Position numbers and translations under genes: made by a program
Notes under the pieces: model-generated
What the model was told of the DNA's origin: nothing
The model's database searches: none
What the model saw: only the letters and a program-made list of their open reading frames with translations
From: an uncultured Spirochaetaceae bacterium
GTDB taxonomy: Bacteria > Spirochaetota > Spirochaetia > Sphaerochaetales > Sphaerochaetaceae
Assembly: GCA_944389505.1 (NCBI GenBank)
Contig: CALXMP010000012.1
Span: 1-57,935, forward strand
Direction of reading: 5' to 3'
Length of the DNA stretch: 57,935 bases
Shown here: in pieces, positions 5,684 to 57,550 of the stretch
Position numbering within the stretch: position 1 is the first letter of the stretch
Layout of the letters: each line of letters begins with the position of its first letter

Positions 5684-5719
5684 ATATTGGAAAGGAATTG
5701 CATTCCTTATTCCTAATAT
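5684..5719. repeat. long imperfect inverted repeat
   Basis: ATATT-GGA-AAGGAAT, a TGC loop, then ATTCCTT-TTCC-AATAT give a stem of about 15 bp with two single-base bulges. It lies between the hypothetical gene and the phase-variable lipoprotein. There is no T-run; the role is unknown. Confidence 0.45.
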
Positions 5720-5728
5720 TAATGATGA

Positions 5729-5765
5729 GGACCTTCTCTTAGCTTGTGCGGGGAGGGTCCATTTT
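5729..5765 (+). terminator. terminator-like hairpin
   Basis: GGACCTTCTC (5729-5738) pairs with GGGAGGGTCC (5751-5760) through ten pairs, two of them G:U, followed by ATTTTAT. Probably ends transcription of the 4957 gene. Confidence 0.6.
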
Positions 5766-5863
5766 ATACGATATCAGAGAAGTATTTCTATATATCCGGA
5801 AGCCTCATTTCCTTGTATAATTGCGCACTCACGAGTATTCTTCTGTACAGAAGGAAATTTTAT

Positions 5864-7409
5864 ATGAGAAATTTTACCCCCCCCCCGTAGGATTATATCC
5901 CGTGCTCTCGGGCTACTGATTTTTCTGGCTATAATCACATCGTGCAGACAGAATGTCATGATTCCAATCCAGATGCCGGAAAAATGGACTGTTACGTTCA
6001 TAAGTGATCCCGAAGAAGCTATGGCAACATATACTGATACGGCTATCGGAAACTCGTATAGGCTTGACGAACCATCTTCCGTCGATGGATATGAATTCAG
6101 TCATTTCCGGCTTTCGGATGGATCAATCCTCAATGCTGGGGAGACAATCAGCTATAGTGGCAAGAATGTTACCGTATATATTGTATGGATCCCAGTGATA
6201 ACGATAGATTCCAGTACTGGTTCAGCGAATCTTATCTCTGCTGCTTTACAGAACCTGTCTGCTGGCAATTATATCATTGACCTTTCCGCCGGTTCTTACT
6301 CTGAAGAGAATGATATAGAGATCAAGACTGGCCAGAATATCGCGATAAGGGCCACCTCTGCATCTGAAACGATCGTCAGCAGCGCTATAAAGCTTCAGGA
6401 AGGATCATCTGTTGCTCTTGAGAATATTACTCTCCAGAAAGCCGATGCTTCTTTGATTGAAGCAGAGACCGGCGGAGTTGCTATCAGTGTGGATTCCTCA
6501 ATTCTGAATGCCTCAGGGACTGGAAGAGGAATAGATGTAACTGTTCCAGTAGGTTCAACAGGAGATGAAGTCCATATTGCTGTAAGCAATTCCGTAATAA
6601 ATGTCGCAGCTGCAGCAACAGGTCCAGTTGGGACAGCTAGGGGTATTGATATAAACAACTACACATATGAGCTATCCTCTCCATTCGCCGGTCGTCTTGA
6701 GGCACTGATCCTTGACCTCGATAATGTCAGCATCAATGACACTACAGGAGGGTCAACGATTGGTGTTTGCATTGCAAATGTTGATTATATGGATGTCGAT
6801 ATGACTGGATGCACTATCGGTCTGCAGAATATCCATTATGCGACCTGCATCGATACATGCGGAACGTCTGATAGAAGAAGCTCCGTTGATATTGATGGTT
6901 GCACCATAAAGGGCTGGTATTGCGTATATCTCCGTGATGCATGCATAGGATTCGACGTCAATGTAAAGGATTCGGATCTTACAACCATCAATACACAGAA
7001 AGGTAACAATAACGGAATCGCGGTTATGCAGATGCATGATTCTCAGGATTGCATTATTACTGCCAATGACTCTCATATGTTATTTGGAAATATTGGAGAT
7101 GAATATAGTGAAGGACTTATATTTGGATTCCAGTATAATAATGATGTCTATACAAAGGGAGGCAATTGCCGGTTTGTAATCAACGGCTGTGATTTTACTC
7201 TTAATAGACCGATGACAGCCCGGATGAAGTTTGCAGCAATCGATAACTTTACATATACCGATAATTACGTACGTAACACATATGAGATGGATTCGTATTC
7301 TATAAACAGCTTATTGAACCTTATACCAGGTACCGAGGTTTTTCCGGTAACGCAACCTTTTACAGTCGATGGAGAGACAATAGACTTTACAGAGTACTTT
7401 CTTCAATAG
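5864..7409 (+). pseudogene. phase-variable beta-helix lipoprotein, OFF at C10
   Basis: AAGGA (5851-5855) and an ATG at 5864 open a frame that meets ten Cs at 5877-5886 and stops at TAG 5888-5890. With nine or twelve Cs the frame joins the long frame ending at 7409, giving a lipoprotein of about 514 residues. Its signal reads RRIISRALGLLIFLAIITSC, with Cys27 as the lipidated residue. Without the tract, the long frame has only an ATG at 5958, which would remove the signal. After the signal comes an InlB B-repeat-like unit (WTVTFISD to VTVYIVW), then a long Ala/Ser/Ile-rich parallel beta-helix with many short D/N-rich turns. This arrangement is a typical slipped-strand switch, here in the OFF state. 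A true dead gene or sequencing error is the alternative. Confidence 0.75.
5877..5886 (+). repeat. poly-C tract (10 Cs), candidate phase-variation switch
   Basis: Ten consecutive Cs start thirteen bases after the first base of the start codon. Frame arithmetic: the ATG is in frame 2 and the lipoprotein body in frame 0 (position modulo 3), so removing one C or adding two restores the reading frame. On the opposite strand the tract reads as a G-run followed by TAAAATT, the same string seen at the -10 of the 1171 promoter. Confidence 0.8.
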
Positions 7410-7425: not shown

Positions 7426-7457
7426 ATCCTGCCTGAGTAGGTTTTAGGCAGGATTTT
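7426..7457 (+). terminator. terminator after the beta-helix lipoprotein
   Basis: ATCCTGCCT (7426-7434) and AGGCAGGAT (7446-7454) form a perfect 9-bp stem followed by TTTT. Its presence argues that the phase-variable gene is a maintained transcription unit. Confidence 0.75.
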
Positions 7458-7670
7458 CAGAATTTTGAAATACCCACTGCATTGGGACATAAAAATGCTG
7501 CTTCAATCATCCGGCACAGGAGCAAATGTTATGCGATATGCAGCTATCAAGTCTGAATGCTGGTATACTGTATACGGCACTGCCATATCATGGTAGGCGG
7601 TTGGCTTCCAGTCGTAACACACTGGAGCCTGTATAGGCTTCACGGATTCTTCATGATGAAAGGAGCTTAT

Positions 7671-8819: not shown

Positions 8820-9710
8820 TCAGCCAATAAGCTTGATAGCCACAGGCACCAGATTTGTTATCGGTGTCTGTTCCGTATATCTCCACCCATCAGATATCTC
8901 TTTAAAGAGGCCATCGGCAGTCAGAGACCTGTTGAAGTATCCCGTTCTCCCATGTATTGTCTTCTCGCATCCCGAAATAGTTATCCCCCTTGAACTGAAT
9001 GATGTATGCTTCCAGTCAAGGATTCCTAGGATAGATGCAGTAAGCGCTCCATGGGATTCCTGTTCCCCGCTTTCCGCATAGACAGGTATCATATAAGACA
9101 GCTCATCAGATCCGGATGCGGCAATGACCTTCACCGACCGCAGGTCAAGCTTGCCGAACATGTCTGCAAAGGCATCCAATATTGATTGATCAGGACTGAT
9201 TGCCATTGCTCCGGAATAGCACGCGTCGATAATTGCAATAGCAGGAGCATCCTTCGCTTCCAGTACATCGAAAACCGAGTCCATTGCAAGCTTCTCATAA
9301 TCTGCTTCCGCTGATCCTACGGCAAGGAATGTATTCCCGTCGTCTTCCACGTCTCCGTGCCCAGAATAATAGAAGATTATCAGATCATCCTCTGTTGAAG
9401 GTATATCAGCGATAGCCTCGATTATCGCGTCAGCATCAGGGTAATCCGGGGCGTCCTTATCAGCTTCCGCACTGTACTGAACAAGATAAGACACATTGGT
9501 ATTGATTCCTCTCTGCCTATACATATCAGAAAGGCATGATCCGATTTCCAATGCATCATCCGGGCACCCTAGAAGATCCGGAGCACTGCTGTCCCGATAA
9601 TCCAGCCCCACCGATATGATATATACTGTGGCTTCCTTGGTATTCCCGTAAGGAGTACAGGCTGTGAGGGCAGTAGTAAGCATAATTAGTATTAGATTAA
9701 GATTACGCAT
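8820..9710 (-). CDS. caspase-like (peptidase C14) lipoprotein
   Basis: A 296-residue predicted lipoprotein: hydrophobic leader ending ALTAC, lipidated Cys18. The mature part has the caspase/metacaspase core, with the catalytic His in FYYSGHGD (His118) and the catalytic Cys in IIDACYSG (Cys164). The beta-strand before each fits the family (DDLIIFYY; PAIAIIDA). Most bacterial caspase homologs are cytoplasmic and cleave after Arg/Lys; lipid anchoring puts this one outside the cytoplasm, presumably in the periplasm or on the outer membrane. It overlaps the upstream barrel gene by 8 bases, so translation is coupled. It is the last gene of the operon. Substrate unknown. Confidence 0.85.
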   Translation of the reverse strand: MRNLNLILIMLTTALTACTPYGNTKEATVYIISVGLDYRDSSAPDLLGCPDDALEIGSCLSDMYRQRGINTNVSYLVQYSAEADKDAPDYPDADAIIEAIADIPSTEDDLIIFYYSGHGDVEDDGNTFLAVGSAEADYEKLAMDSVFDVLEAKDAPAIAIIDACYSGAMAISPDQSILDAFADMFGKLDLRSVKVIAASGSDELSYMIPVYAESGEQESHGALTASILGILDWKHTSFSSRGITISGCEKTIHGRTGYFNRSLTADGLFKEISDGWRYTEQTPITNLVPVAIKLIG

Positions 9711-10248
9711 AGGATCCCATCTCCACTGATATGCCCAATCCTGCGGTTATTCCGAATGTGTCTCCGGAAAATCGCATTCGGACAGGAGCAAGGATGCTGA
9801 ATGATACAGGAACTCTCAGGATTGTTCCTGACAGACTTGCGAATCTGTATCTGGCAGAACCACCAGCCACAAACTCAGCAATAGGGTATCCATTCATCCA
9901 GCTAATTATCATACCAAATTCTGCATCAAAAAGCCATTTATCATCCCGGAACATTGCACCGAGGCTGAACAGAACACCATAGGCATGTGCAAGCGATAGA
10001 AATGGTTCAAGCGACATTGCTGGAGCATCGAACAGGAATCCTGCCTTGCCGTACAGGGCAATATTCTCATGGATTTCCCCTCCAATCGCGTAAGACGCAG
10101 CAATACCCCAGTCAATAACGGAGATTGCATCCATCGATCTATATCCTGTGCTTACATCTATCCCGAAAGAACTGTGAAGCTCTGCCGCGGATGCCGCCGA
10201 TGAGGCTGCGAGCAGGAATCCTGTCAGAATGCATGCCCCTTTTCTCAT
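9703..10248 (-). CDS. outer-membrane beta-barrel protein
   Basis: A 181-residue protein with a cleavable signal peptide (MRKG, hydrophobic stretch, ASAAE site near residue 22). Alternating hydrophobic strands with aromatic girdle residues follow (IDWGIAASYAIGGEIHE, IALYGKAGFLF, FGITAGLGISVEMGSYA), consistent with an eight-stranded barrel. Its start overlaps the stop of the RHH gene in an ATGA, and its end overlaps the caspase gene, so it belongs to the same coupled operon. It may be the surface partner or porter of the caspase lipoprotein; that is inference. Confidence 0.7.
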   Translation of the reverse strand: MRKGACILTGFLLAASSAASAAELHSSFGIDVSTGYRSMDAISVIDWGIAASYAIGGEIHENIALYGKAGFLFDAPAMSLEPFLSLAHAYGVLFSLGAMFRDDKWLFDAEFGMIISWMNGYPIAEFVAGGSARYRFASLSGTILRVPVSFSILAPVRMRFSGDTFGITAGLGISVEMGSYA

Positions 10249-53187: not shown

Positions 53188-53215
53188 TTGACAAATACCC
53201 GGGGGGGGGTATATT
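53188..53215 (+). promoter_or_regulatory. G9-tract promoter of a surface lipoprotein
   Basis: TTGACA (53188-53193), 16 bases ending in nine Gs (53201-53209), then TATATT (53210-53215). One more G gives the 17-base optimum, so tract length should tune or switch transcription. Confidence 0.65.
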
Positions 53216-53248: not shown

Positions 53249-54568
53249 ATGAAGAGACAGATCAAGCTTTTTGCGGTATTGGCAATTGTTCTTGCTGCAG
53301 GAGCATCGTGCAATAATAATCCTTTGGGTGATCTTCCATTATGGGTTGTTCTTGGGCCATGCTATGCAGGTCATACATGGGAACTTGAATCCCATAAAGA
53401 ACCGACATGCATGGAAACGGGCGAAGATGTATATGTATGCTCTGTGTGCGGGAAAGAGAAGACGGATATTCTGGCAAAGATTCCGCATGCATTCGGAGAT
53501 TATCCAAATGAATGTATCTACTGTCATAATCTGTTCTATTCATCATTGGATGAATTCAATGAAAAAGTGACCCTTGAAAATGCCAAGGGCAAGATTGTCG
53601 AGGTAGCGCTGGGAAACCTGGATTATTCAGATATCGAATATGAAGAGCATAATTCAGGATATAAAGGGAATGGACTTCTTATCGGACGATTGCCAGGCGG
53701 TGATATAGAACCTCTTAACAGATATAACGCAGAACCAGCGGAGAAGGGTGAATATACATTTATTTTCAAGGACGGGACAATTAATTCAAGCTCGAACGGA
53801 TATTCTAGTATTGATAACATCAACGGCTCTGTTATCTATATGCTCATTCCTGGAAACAGCAGCGTGACTTTTGAGAATGTTGTATTCAATAATGTCGTAA
53901 GCTTTGGAATCCAGAACTATACATCCCCGTGGAGCTATCTTGATTCAATCAGATTCGAAAACTGTATCTTTAACGGACTTGTTGTAGGCTATTCACCGGC
54001 GGATAATCTTGTTTTCAATGGCTGCACGTTCAACGAATATCTCAATGGGTATCAAGATGTGGGAACATTCAACTCCTCCAATAATTCCAATCCTATATGG
54101 ATGAGGTCAGGGAAACCCAGTTATTCTGGTGAGCCTTTAGTAGTTTCGATGAAAACTGTGGTTTTCACAAATAATACAGTAACGAGTTCCCGTCCTGTCA
54201 AATTTGAACGTATCGGACAGCTTAGTGAGGCACTTGGGTATACAGCAACATTGACTATCCTTGATAATCAATTCGATATGTCTTGTTCGAATGATGCCGA
54301 TGTGTCAGAGGAAGAGAAGCATATGGCATTGTTCTTAGGGCAGCAAGATAATACCAGCAAATTCATACTTTATGACGATGGAAACAAAGTAAATGACGGG
54401 ATTCCTATGTATACTTCGATGCTTCCGGATTCTGATACAACATCAGGTGGAACATATTATTTCGAAGTTCTAGGAACAAGAATTCTCGACAGAAACGGGA
54501 ACCCGAAGGAGATTACTGCAAGGGTCTGGAAGTCACTGTCAGAAGAATTCGTGATGAGATCGCTATAA
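53249..54568 (+). CDS. beta-helix surface lipoprotein with a Cys-rich N-terminal motif
   Basis: A 439-residue lipoprotein: signal ending LAAGASC, lipidated Cys21; AGGAGGG Shine-Dalgarno. Residues 45-95 carry a Cys/His-rich segment (HTWELESHKEPTCMETGEDV, VCSVCGKEK, ECIYCH) that looks like a small zinc-binding module found in surface proteins of gut bacteria. The rest is a parallel beta-helix with Asn ladders (FENVVFNNVVSFG, FNGCTFNEY). Probably binds a host or dietary glycan or matrix; inferred. Transcription likely depends on the G9 tract. Confidence 0.75.
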   Translation: MKRQIKLFAVLAIVLAAGASCNNNPLGDLPLWVVLGPCYAGHTWELESHKEPTCMETGEDVYVCSVCGKEKTDILAKIPHAFGDYPNECIYCHNLFYSSLDEFNEKVTLENAKGKIVEVALGNLDYSDIEYEEHNSGYKGNGLLIGRLPGGDIEPLNRYNAEPAEKGEYTFIFKDGTINSSSNGYSSIDNINGSVIYMLIPGNSSVTFENVVFNNVVSFGIQNYTSPWSYLDSIRFENCIFNGLVVGYSPADNLVFNGCTFNEYLNGYQDVGTFNSSNNSNPIWMRSGKPSYSGEPLVVSMKTVVFTNNTVTSSRPVKFERIGQLSEALGYTATLTILDNQFDMSCSNDADVSEEEKHMALFLGQQDNTSKFILYDDGNKVNDGIPMYTSMLPDSDTTSGGTYYFEVLGTRILDRNGNPKEITARVWKSLSEEFVMRSL

Positions 54569-55656: not shown

Positions 55657-57550
55657 TCATAGATAAGTAATTGTGAGATAACTAATTCCCGAGCCAATAT
55701 GCTCTTTTGTAATAGGATTGTCGTCTGATATCTTATTATCATTTATATAACAATTTTCAATCGTAATACTTTGCGGAGCAGCTACCAAACCTATAATTTT
55801 ACCTATTATTTTATCGATATTTTCTATTTTTAAATCATCTGTGAAAGTTAATCCCTGAAGAGTTGCGCCTGAACTCTGAAGGTATCCAATAGCACCACCA
55901 GGATAGTTGCTAGAAATATCTCCATTGATTACAACGCCTGAAATTATACTCTTAGCAAATTCTTCTTCGTCTTTGAGAATGCCTGCAATAGCCGAAGCAC
56001 TACAAGCATTTGTAGATACTTTTCCTGTTGAACCTCCGTTTTTAATTTCAGAATTTTGCAATATGCCAACTATTCCACCAGGGGCTGCATATGTTGTATT
56101 TGAGTTGTGAGTAATTGTAACTGCTCCGTGGTTCCACGAAGATATTATTGAAGATCCTGTATACGCACAACCTACAAGTCCTCCGATTTGATAAGCTCTT
56201 TCTGTTCCTTTTATATCTCCACTGTTTATAACATTGCTGATTGTTGCTCCTTTCAATCTTCCCGCTATTCCTCCAATATGATACGAGATTCCAGAAACAG
56301 ACCCGACGTTTGTATCTGTATCTGTTGTACCGGAGATATTTGTTCCGTTATCTGCAGTTCCAACTATACCACCTACAATAAAATCTCCTGTAATATTACC
56401 CTTATTTGTTGTTTCACTTATAGATGTATTACTTGCTGTTCCAGCAATACCTCCAATGTTTGAATAGCCAGAGAATTCCAAATTCCCTTCATTTGATGAA
56501 TTGATTATCGATGAATTTGAAGCTCTGCCAACTAAGCCACCAATAATTCCAGAATTTGTATATGTTCCTTCTGTAAAAGCATCAATGGACTTGAGATTAA
56601 TGCAGTTCTCAATGGTTGAATCTGTAAGTGTTCCCGCAATGCCACCAGAACGAATCTTACCTTTGATGCTTCCATTGTTGTCACATTCATATGTATGTTC
56701 CATTCTCTGCCGATCCGACTATGCCACCGGTTGTTGAGCCAGTTTCTGATGATACAGCTCCTTGATTGATGCAGAATTCAATCCTGCAATGACCTTCAGC
56801 TGCAGATCCTGTAATTCCTCCTGCATAGGTTCCTCCCTCATCAGGTGCATCGAGACCTAATACTGTTGCATTGTTTACACAATGGAGGATGCTGCCACCT
56901 TCCATTTCACCCGCGATGCCTCCGGCTCTTTGAGCTTTGACGGAACCCGATACTTCACAATTCTGGATGACAGCTCCATCCTGCATATTACCTGCAATTA
57001 AACCTGCGGAAGGGGTAGAGTGATTTTCCGGTGTTATCTTTTTATTATTGATATTACCACTGACTTCAATATTCTCAATCAGAGCCCCTGTTCCAAGACC
57101 GCCAAAAATTCCTACGAACGTATTGATATCATCTTCATAGGAGATAGATATTTTAGTCTTATTTTCAGGTGAAGGACCTCTGAATGTCCCCTGGAATGCA
57201 CTTGGTCCTTTTGTTCCTATCGGATTATGATTTGTAAGTGTAATGGGATTTTCAACTTGAAATACAATACCTTCAAATGTTGTCATTCCATCATTAACAA
57301 GTCTAGCTATCTGTTCGATTCCGGCTTGATCGGAAATGATGTATGGATTGCTGACGCTTCCATTTCCCTCAGGGAAGTATTCATTCCATTTACCTGTCTC
57401 AGTTGAATCTTCTCCATCTTCCCAGAATGGCGGAATGGGAACGATTATCTGTCTGCATGATGATACCAAAATAGCTAATATGCAAAGCAATACGACTTCA
57501 GTTATTTTACATAGATTTAACCTATGATTTACTTTACATGTTGATTTCAT
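55657..57550 (-). pseudogene. GLUG-repeat lipoprotein split by a 4-bp duplication frameshift
   Basis: The first part (57550 to 56687) starts with GGAGG before its ATG and has a lipoprotein signal (VVLLCILAILVSSC, Cys32). It stops inside a GLUG-type repeat, GGIVGSAENGTYI. The next frame resumes with ECDNNGSIKGKIRSGGIAGT and runs to 55657. The break lies at ACATACAT (56691-56698 on the plus strand, inverted); deleting one ACAT joins the frames as ENGTYECDNNGS, giving about 630 residues. GLUG repeats (GGIAG.., GGIVG..) form beta-helix adhesin stalks. It may be a slippage-prone switch, a recent mutation, or an assembly error. Confidence 0.75.

Follow-up and report, generated by a model that had tools for sequence, protein, structure and literature searches.

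A probable phase-variable lipoprotein gene with a poly-C tract in its signal-peptide region in an uncultured spirochaete

The C10 locus and its reading frames

The window, a stretch of 57,935 nucleotides from an uncultured Spirochaetaceae bacterium (contig CALXMP010000012.1), contains at positions 5864–7409 of its forward strand a lipoprotein gene whose start codon and coding body are, as assembled, in different frames. An AAGGA ribosome-binding site (5851–5855, +) is located 8 nt 5' of the ATG (5864–5866); the MRNF codons are followed by a tract of ten Cs (C10, 5877–5886, +) in the n-region of the signal peptide and then by the stop codon TAG (5888–5890), an arrangement that matches the original prediction base for base. 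In this out-of-frame state the open reading frame (5864–5890, +) encodes just eight amino acids, MRNFTPPP. Removing one C leaves 514 codons open from the ATG at 5864 (MRNFTPPRRIISRALGLLIFLAIITSCRQN...), while adding one leads to a stop after 18 codons. These reading-frame lengths place 9 or 12 Cs in frame and 10 or 11 out of frame, as had been predicted. With one length class in three in frame, the length of the tract between the ATG and the signal peptide would decide whether the protein is expressed.

The body frame (5886–7409, +), which comprises the remainder of the signal peptide and the mature lipoprotein of about 488 residues, is open from 5' of the tract, and its first stop is its own, at 7409. 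It contains 508 open codons, and apart from the tract the gene is intact, bearing out the claim of a body without decay. The signal peptide in this frame reads ...LLIFLAIITSC (RALGLLIFLAIITSC), with the codon for the lipobox cysteine at 5943–5945. The n-region, the hydrophobic stretch and the lipobox cysteine are all in the body frame (RRIISRALGLLIFLAIITSC, continuing as RQNVMIPI...), as in a bacterial lipoprotein that is a substrate of Lgt and Lsp. Per codon, the body frame scores +0.04 log units for codon usage, and the five other frames score −0.19 to −0.89; the range for other lipoproteins is −0.01 to +0.22. Codon usage thus favours the body frame.

In the promoter region of the gene both a good −35 box and a poly-G run are absent. 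A possible −10 box, TATAAT (5816–5821, +), is a weak candidate, as the promoter scan did not list it; with a putative promoter that lacks poly-G, control at 5864 would therefore be translational. Downstream of the body stop, an inverted repeat with arms ATCCTGCCT and AGGCAGGAT (7426–7454) and a short T run form a possible terminator (7426–7458, +). The gene had been described as having its own terminator; the repeat and the T run are present, but they are missing from the list of the terminator scan because the 11-nt loop exceeds the limit of the scan, leaving the terminator plausible only.

Several other features were observed in the window. A 57-bp terminator-like element (5703–5758) has five further copies in the genome, 86–90% identical, four of which lie some 1.7 kb from poly-G promoters of lipoprotein genes, as would fit members of a paralogous family having a 3' end in common. 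The gene at 8820–9710 (−) encodes a caspase-like protein (Peptidase_C14) whose signal resembles that of a lipoprotein; it is adjoined by the gene for a small outer-membrane-barrel-like protein (9703–10248). The AT-rich end of the window contains two neighbouring genes with GLUG motifs (55657–57550, −).

The protein body and its homologues

Searches of Pfam, NCBIfam and PDB sequences with the body returned nothing that names it. The profile of the Listeria-Bacteroides repeat (Flg_new, PF09479) matches three of eight homologues near the N-terminus, with a best value of 7.6e-06, and leaves the protein itself unmatched; a repeat resembling Flg_new is placed at 5988–6173 (+), a position inferred from the alignment with the homologues. 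A single-sequence structure prediction gave a mean pLDDT of 43, with residues 110–240 mostly between 60 and 80. All top structural matches of this weak model in the PDB are beta-helices of the right-handed type (Z 17–19.5, rmsd 3.0–3.4, identity 10–16%), with PL6 alginate lyases ranking first and the adhesins SRRP and PfbA among them; they involve residues 102–416, approximately, of the protein (P0001; 6189–7133, +). The body thus resembles a right-handed beta-helix according to this low-confidence model, so that the predicted beta-helix is backed at the level of the fold, albeit by a weak model. From this we infer a surface beta-helix that may bind or cut carbohydrate. PfbA of Streptococcus pneumoniae, SRRP of Lactobacillus reuteri and the PL6 lyases have a fold like that of the predicted body, but at only 10–16% identity their function cannot be carried over.

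Across 139 genomes of the taxonomic family, a profile search yielded 11 full-length homologues, including the gene at 5864–7409 itself (G000); they have the same lipoprotein signal plan, and the one nearest to G000 is 31% identical. Nine of the 11 carry a 5' repeat, the type and place of which vary. In the n-region are found the C10 of G000, a G11 in G042 and (GA)8 in G036, all three out of frame. G013 has a G9 coding for the glycine residues of its lipobox, VGGGC, and is in frame, while a C9 is positioned just after the lipobox in G023a, out of frame. (GA)n repeats are also present in G012 and G027, both in frame, and in G023b, where a convincing start codon near the repeat is absent. G025 has a G9 in its promoter spacer, and a 5' repeat is absent from G039 and G059. 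At least four homologues are therefore out of frame (G000, G042, G036 and G023a) and three in frame (G013, G012 and G027).

When the relatives were checked for other disabling mutations, the bodies of all ten other full-length homologues proved open regardless of whether the tract put them in frame, and eight of the ten have a differently placed repeat of their own. In a tree of the bodies, in which the deep branching is a weak guide, the (GA)n copies group in a single supported clade, and the remaining copies occupy separate long branches; several independent gains or replacements of repeats in the family would thus be the simplest reading. Comparison of G036, out of frame, with G027, in frame, gave a dN of 0.34 and a dS of 1.40, the high dS making this a rough estimate. 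The dN/dS of about 0.2 suggests purifying selection on the bodies of the (GA)n branch.

Searching a collection of genome contigs with the 5864–7409 protein revealed zero relatives, nor did its 5' sequence match viral contigs; a small 5' similarity at C7:81304 was discarded, as it sits inside an unrelated coding sequence. The gene was also sought in nine named relatives (via promoter matches), including the close relative 'uncultured Spirochaetaceae bacterium isolate E27__bin123', with zero matches, and the close relative G148 is without it.

Long G/C runs in the genome and the genus

Just two G/C runs in the window exceed six nucleotides: C10 and a G9 (53201–53209). The G9 is part of a second switch-like site (53188–53215, +), in which TTGACA and TATATT are separated by a 16-nt spacer holding the run. 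Behind it is a lipoprotein gene (53249–54568, +; MKRQIKLFAVLAIVLAAGASCNNN..., 439 amino acids). A pattern search of the 2.12 Mb genome found 18 distinct G/C runs of 9–12, compared with 0.3–4.9 runs of at least nine expected under Markov models of order 5 to 1. In 256 kb of stretches picked around long runs there are 95 runs of five, 16 of six, one of seven and none of eight, followed by 8, 6, 3 and 1 of lengths 9, 10, 11 and 12; choosing stretches around long runs inflates the long class, whereas the gap at 7–8 has another origin.

All 18 tracts were examined on both strands. At least 15 of the 17 classifiable runs adjoin lipoprotein genes. The tracts are above chance in number and non-random in place, as expected of contingency loci. 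Thirteen are poly-G runs between TTGAC(A/T) and a downstream box, usually TAnnnT, with a spacer of 16–22 nt; 11 of these promoter tracts precede a lipoprotein gene, another precedes a small ORF (L040), and the last reaches the contig end (L052). Two tracts are within signal-peptide n-regions, C10 and a G10 in a second lipoprotein (L046), which is currently in frame (MRKIYKSHTTGGGYKSLTVLVSLLIAVLAITSC) and has no homologues in 47 congeners at E 1e-10. At the other loci, a G9 is located 89 nt 5' of a lipoprotein gene (L041) and a G11 lies 5' of a probably secreted protein (L053). Near-identical 5' regions have unequal tracts, G9 in L039 against G10 in L050 and G9 in L048 against G11 in L051; the related loci L053 and L240 likewise differ, with G11 and G9.

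Two lipoprotein loci have interrupted frames. In L044 (G000:C4:90000-102000), a C9 at 5762–5770 is positioned two bases upstream of the −35-like TTGACT of a lipoprotein gene (MRKKLGIALCLSIAFVMASCTQYDY...), the frame of which is broken by an internal TAG. In L045 (G000:C5:84000-96000, about 6265–6370), a lipoprotein gene has a G10 in its promoter, and a T6 run interrupts its signal-peptide frame; the gene may be a pseudogene or carry a second switch based on T.

The congener data are assemblies throughout. The pattern TTGAC-N7..13-G9 is present in 37 of the 48 genomes of the genus, with 273 matches (long tracts being counted repeatedly) against six for the reversed pattern. Of 31 genus tracts, sampled at a single locus in each genome, at least 25 precede a lipoprotein, as judged by a simple motif test. 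A lipoprotein is located behind the tract in 13 of 15 cases in named spirochaete assemblies versus 7 of 70 in other phyla. In E27__bin123, the V-ATPase B of which is 99% identical, there are 14 tracts of at least eight, among them a further G10 that codes for part of the n-region of a lipoprotein (L246) and a G9 directly after a lipobox (L251). Its loci L245 and L249 have near-identical promoters with G12 and G9, respectively. The 5' ends of the lipoprotein genes of L067, L183, L245 and L249 in this relative are near-identical, each behind a poly-G promoter; the open reading frame of L067 and L183 is 37 amino acids only (MARKTNIFLAIGLVLVAILAGCSDKASYPPYPVSVYI), perhaps representing truncated copies or cassettes.

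Phase variation, alternatives and known systems

The frame arithmetic, the intact body, the excess of tracts at lipoprotein genes across the genome and genus, the unequal tracts of near-identical copies and the repeats of the homologues all back the original prediction of a contingency locus, and we consider the gene at 5864–7409 very probably phase-variable. Slipped-strand mispairing at C10 during replication would gain or lose Cs. With 9 or 12, the start would join the frame of the signal peptide and body (ON), while with 10 or 11 translation would end within about 20 codons (OFF), the assembly capturing the OFF length, C10. In a living population the tract length would be expected to change, the ON form would be exported and lipidated, and switching may vary the cell surface, perhaps in response to host immunity, phages or changing polysaccharide ligands. 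In most sister genes, control would be exerted through promoter spacing, as for tp0126 of Treponema pallidum. On a genus-wide scale, we think it rather likely that a combinatorial lipoprotein switchboard exists, in which a genome would have as many as about 20 slippery tracts, almost all of them beside lipoprotein genes, and with differing tracts acquired repeatedly at promoter, n-region, lipobox and post-lipobox positions in one beta-helix family. Such repeated gains of differing tracts within one family would point to lasting selection on the gene to be switchable, through whichever repeat happens to appear.

The strongest competitor, though itself unlikely, is an assembly or sequencing error, the real tract having 9 (or 12) Cs and the gene simply being on in the sampled population. 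Homopolymers of ten are prone to error, a metagenome-style assembly may miscall their length by one, and the genome is assembled in 19 contigs with 96% completeness. An error would, however, alter the recorded state only, leaving a long C run in the signal peptide, and several homologues are out of frame independently. These homologues are out of frame at differing repeats and have open bodies, those of the (GA)n branch under apparent selection, which also argues against a recent frameshift pseudogene that arose by chance in a homopolymer and never switches back. The gene is out of frame as assembled and the same genome has disabled lipoprotein frames (the internal TAG of L044 and the T6 break of L045), but with 508 open codons, coding-like codon use and the clustering of long G/C runs at lipoprotein 5' ends, decay of this kind seems improbable to us.

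Long homopolymers can provoke transcription slippage, and RNA-polymerase slippage, or ribosomal frameshifting, on C10 might yield some full-length protein in every cell, the tract then setting a level instead of acting as a genetic switch. We give this about as little credence as the pseudogene, if marginally more: it needs no length differences, yet copies do differ in length, and it cannot explain the set of tracts because most sister tracts sit between −35 and −10 boxes, where they are untranscribed. The possibility that C10 is the spacer of a minus-strand poly-G promoter, as in the sister loci, with the lipoprotein frame incidental, is supported by a −10-like TAAAAT after the run on that strand. 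It was rejected as highly implausible, since the minus strand has neither a fitting TTGACA-like −35 box nor a downstream ORF, and the plus strand has a start, a ribosome site, a signal peptide and a conserved body.

Most knowledge of phase-variable surface proteins comes from a handful of pathogens. A spirochaete genus represented by assemblies only, in which the majority of long G/C runs appear to lie beside lipoprotein genes, would offer a way to test which pressures select for phase variation. Metagenome annotation would overlook such lipoproteins, given their out-of-frame starts, or label them pseudogenes. In the beta-helix family, switches appear to have been gained convergently at the 5' ends, which could serve for studying how contingency loci originate.

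Translational phase variation in signal-peptide regions occurs in the opa and pilC genes of Neisseria and the hop genes of Helicobacter pylori. Like C10, these have a repeat in the early codons, ON/OFF control by frame and a surface protein behind it, but the repeats and protein families differ and switching has been demonstrated experimentally there. In the spirochaete T. pallidum, the surface protein genes tprE/G/J, tp0126 and tprL have G homopolymers of 7–11 (PMC7864442). The tp0126 tract is in the −35/−10 spacer, like 13 tracts of this genome, and transcription is optimal at a spacing of 17 nt (PMC7864442). Control is transcriptional in T. pallidum (PMC7864442), whereas the tract at 5877–5886 is coding and acts on the reading frame; being 3' of the ATG, C10 is not a poly-G promoter of this type, which is found instead at 53201–53209. 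No relation was seen between the T. pallidum poly-G genes and the gene at 5864–7409. That slipped-strand phase variation is known for other surface genes, as had been stated, accordingly holds for Neisseria and Helicobacter, and for T. pallidum with its poly-G promoters.

Large repeat-driven repertoires have been reviewed for Neisseria, Campylobacter, Helicobacter and T. pallidum (PMC11868660), the phase-variable repertoire of Neisseria also being covered in PMC5953494. In the library of papers that was searched, none links Sphaerochaeta with phase variation. The gene had been called undescribed: it is nameless in the Pfam, NCBIfam and PDB searches, although its mechanism is a familiar one and it has many sister loci. 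Promoter and coding switches are both known already. The novelty lies in the gene family and the genus, in the nearly exclusive placement of tracts at lipoprotein genes, and in how varied the tracts of a single family are in type and position. As here, the Neisseria and Campylobacter phasomes have many independent switches per genome, in promoters and coding regions (PMC5953494, PMC6321876), although in this uncultured spirochaete genus the long G/C tracts that can be classified are almost all found beside lipoprotein genes. The mycoplasma Vlp and Vpma systems are also sets of independently expressed surface lipoproteins (PMC11868660, PMC2268961), but mycoplasmas belong to an unrelated phylum and Vpma switches by DNA inversion.
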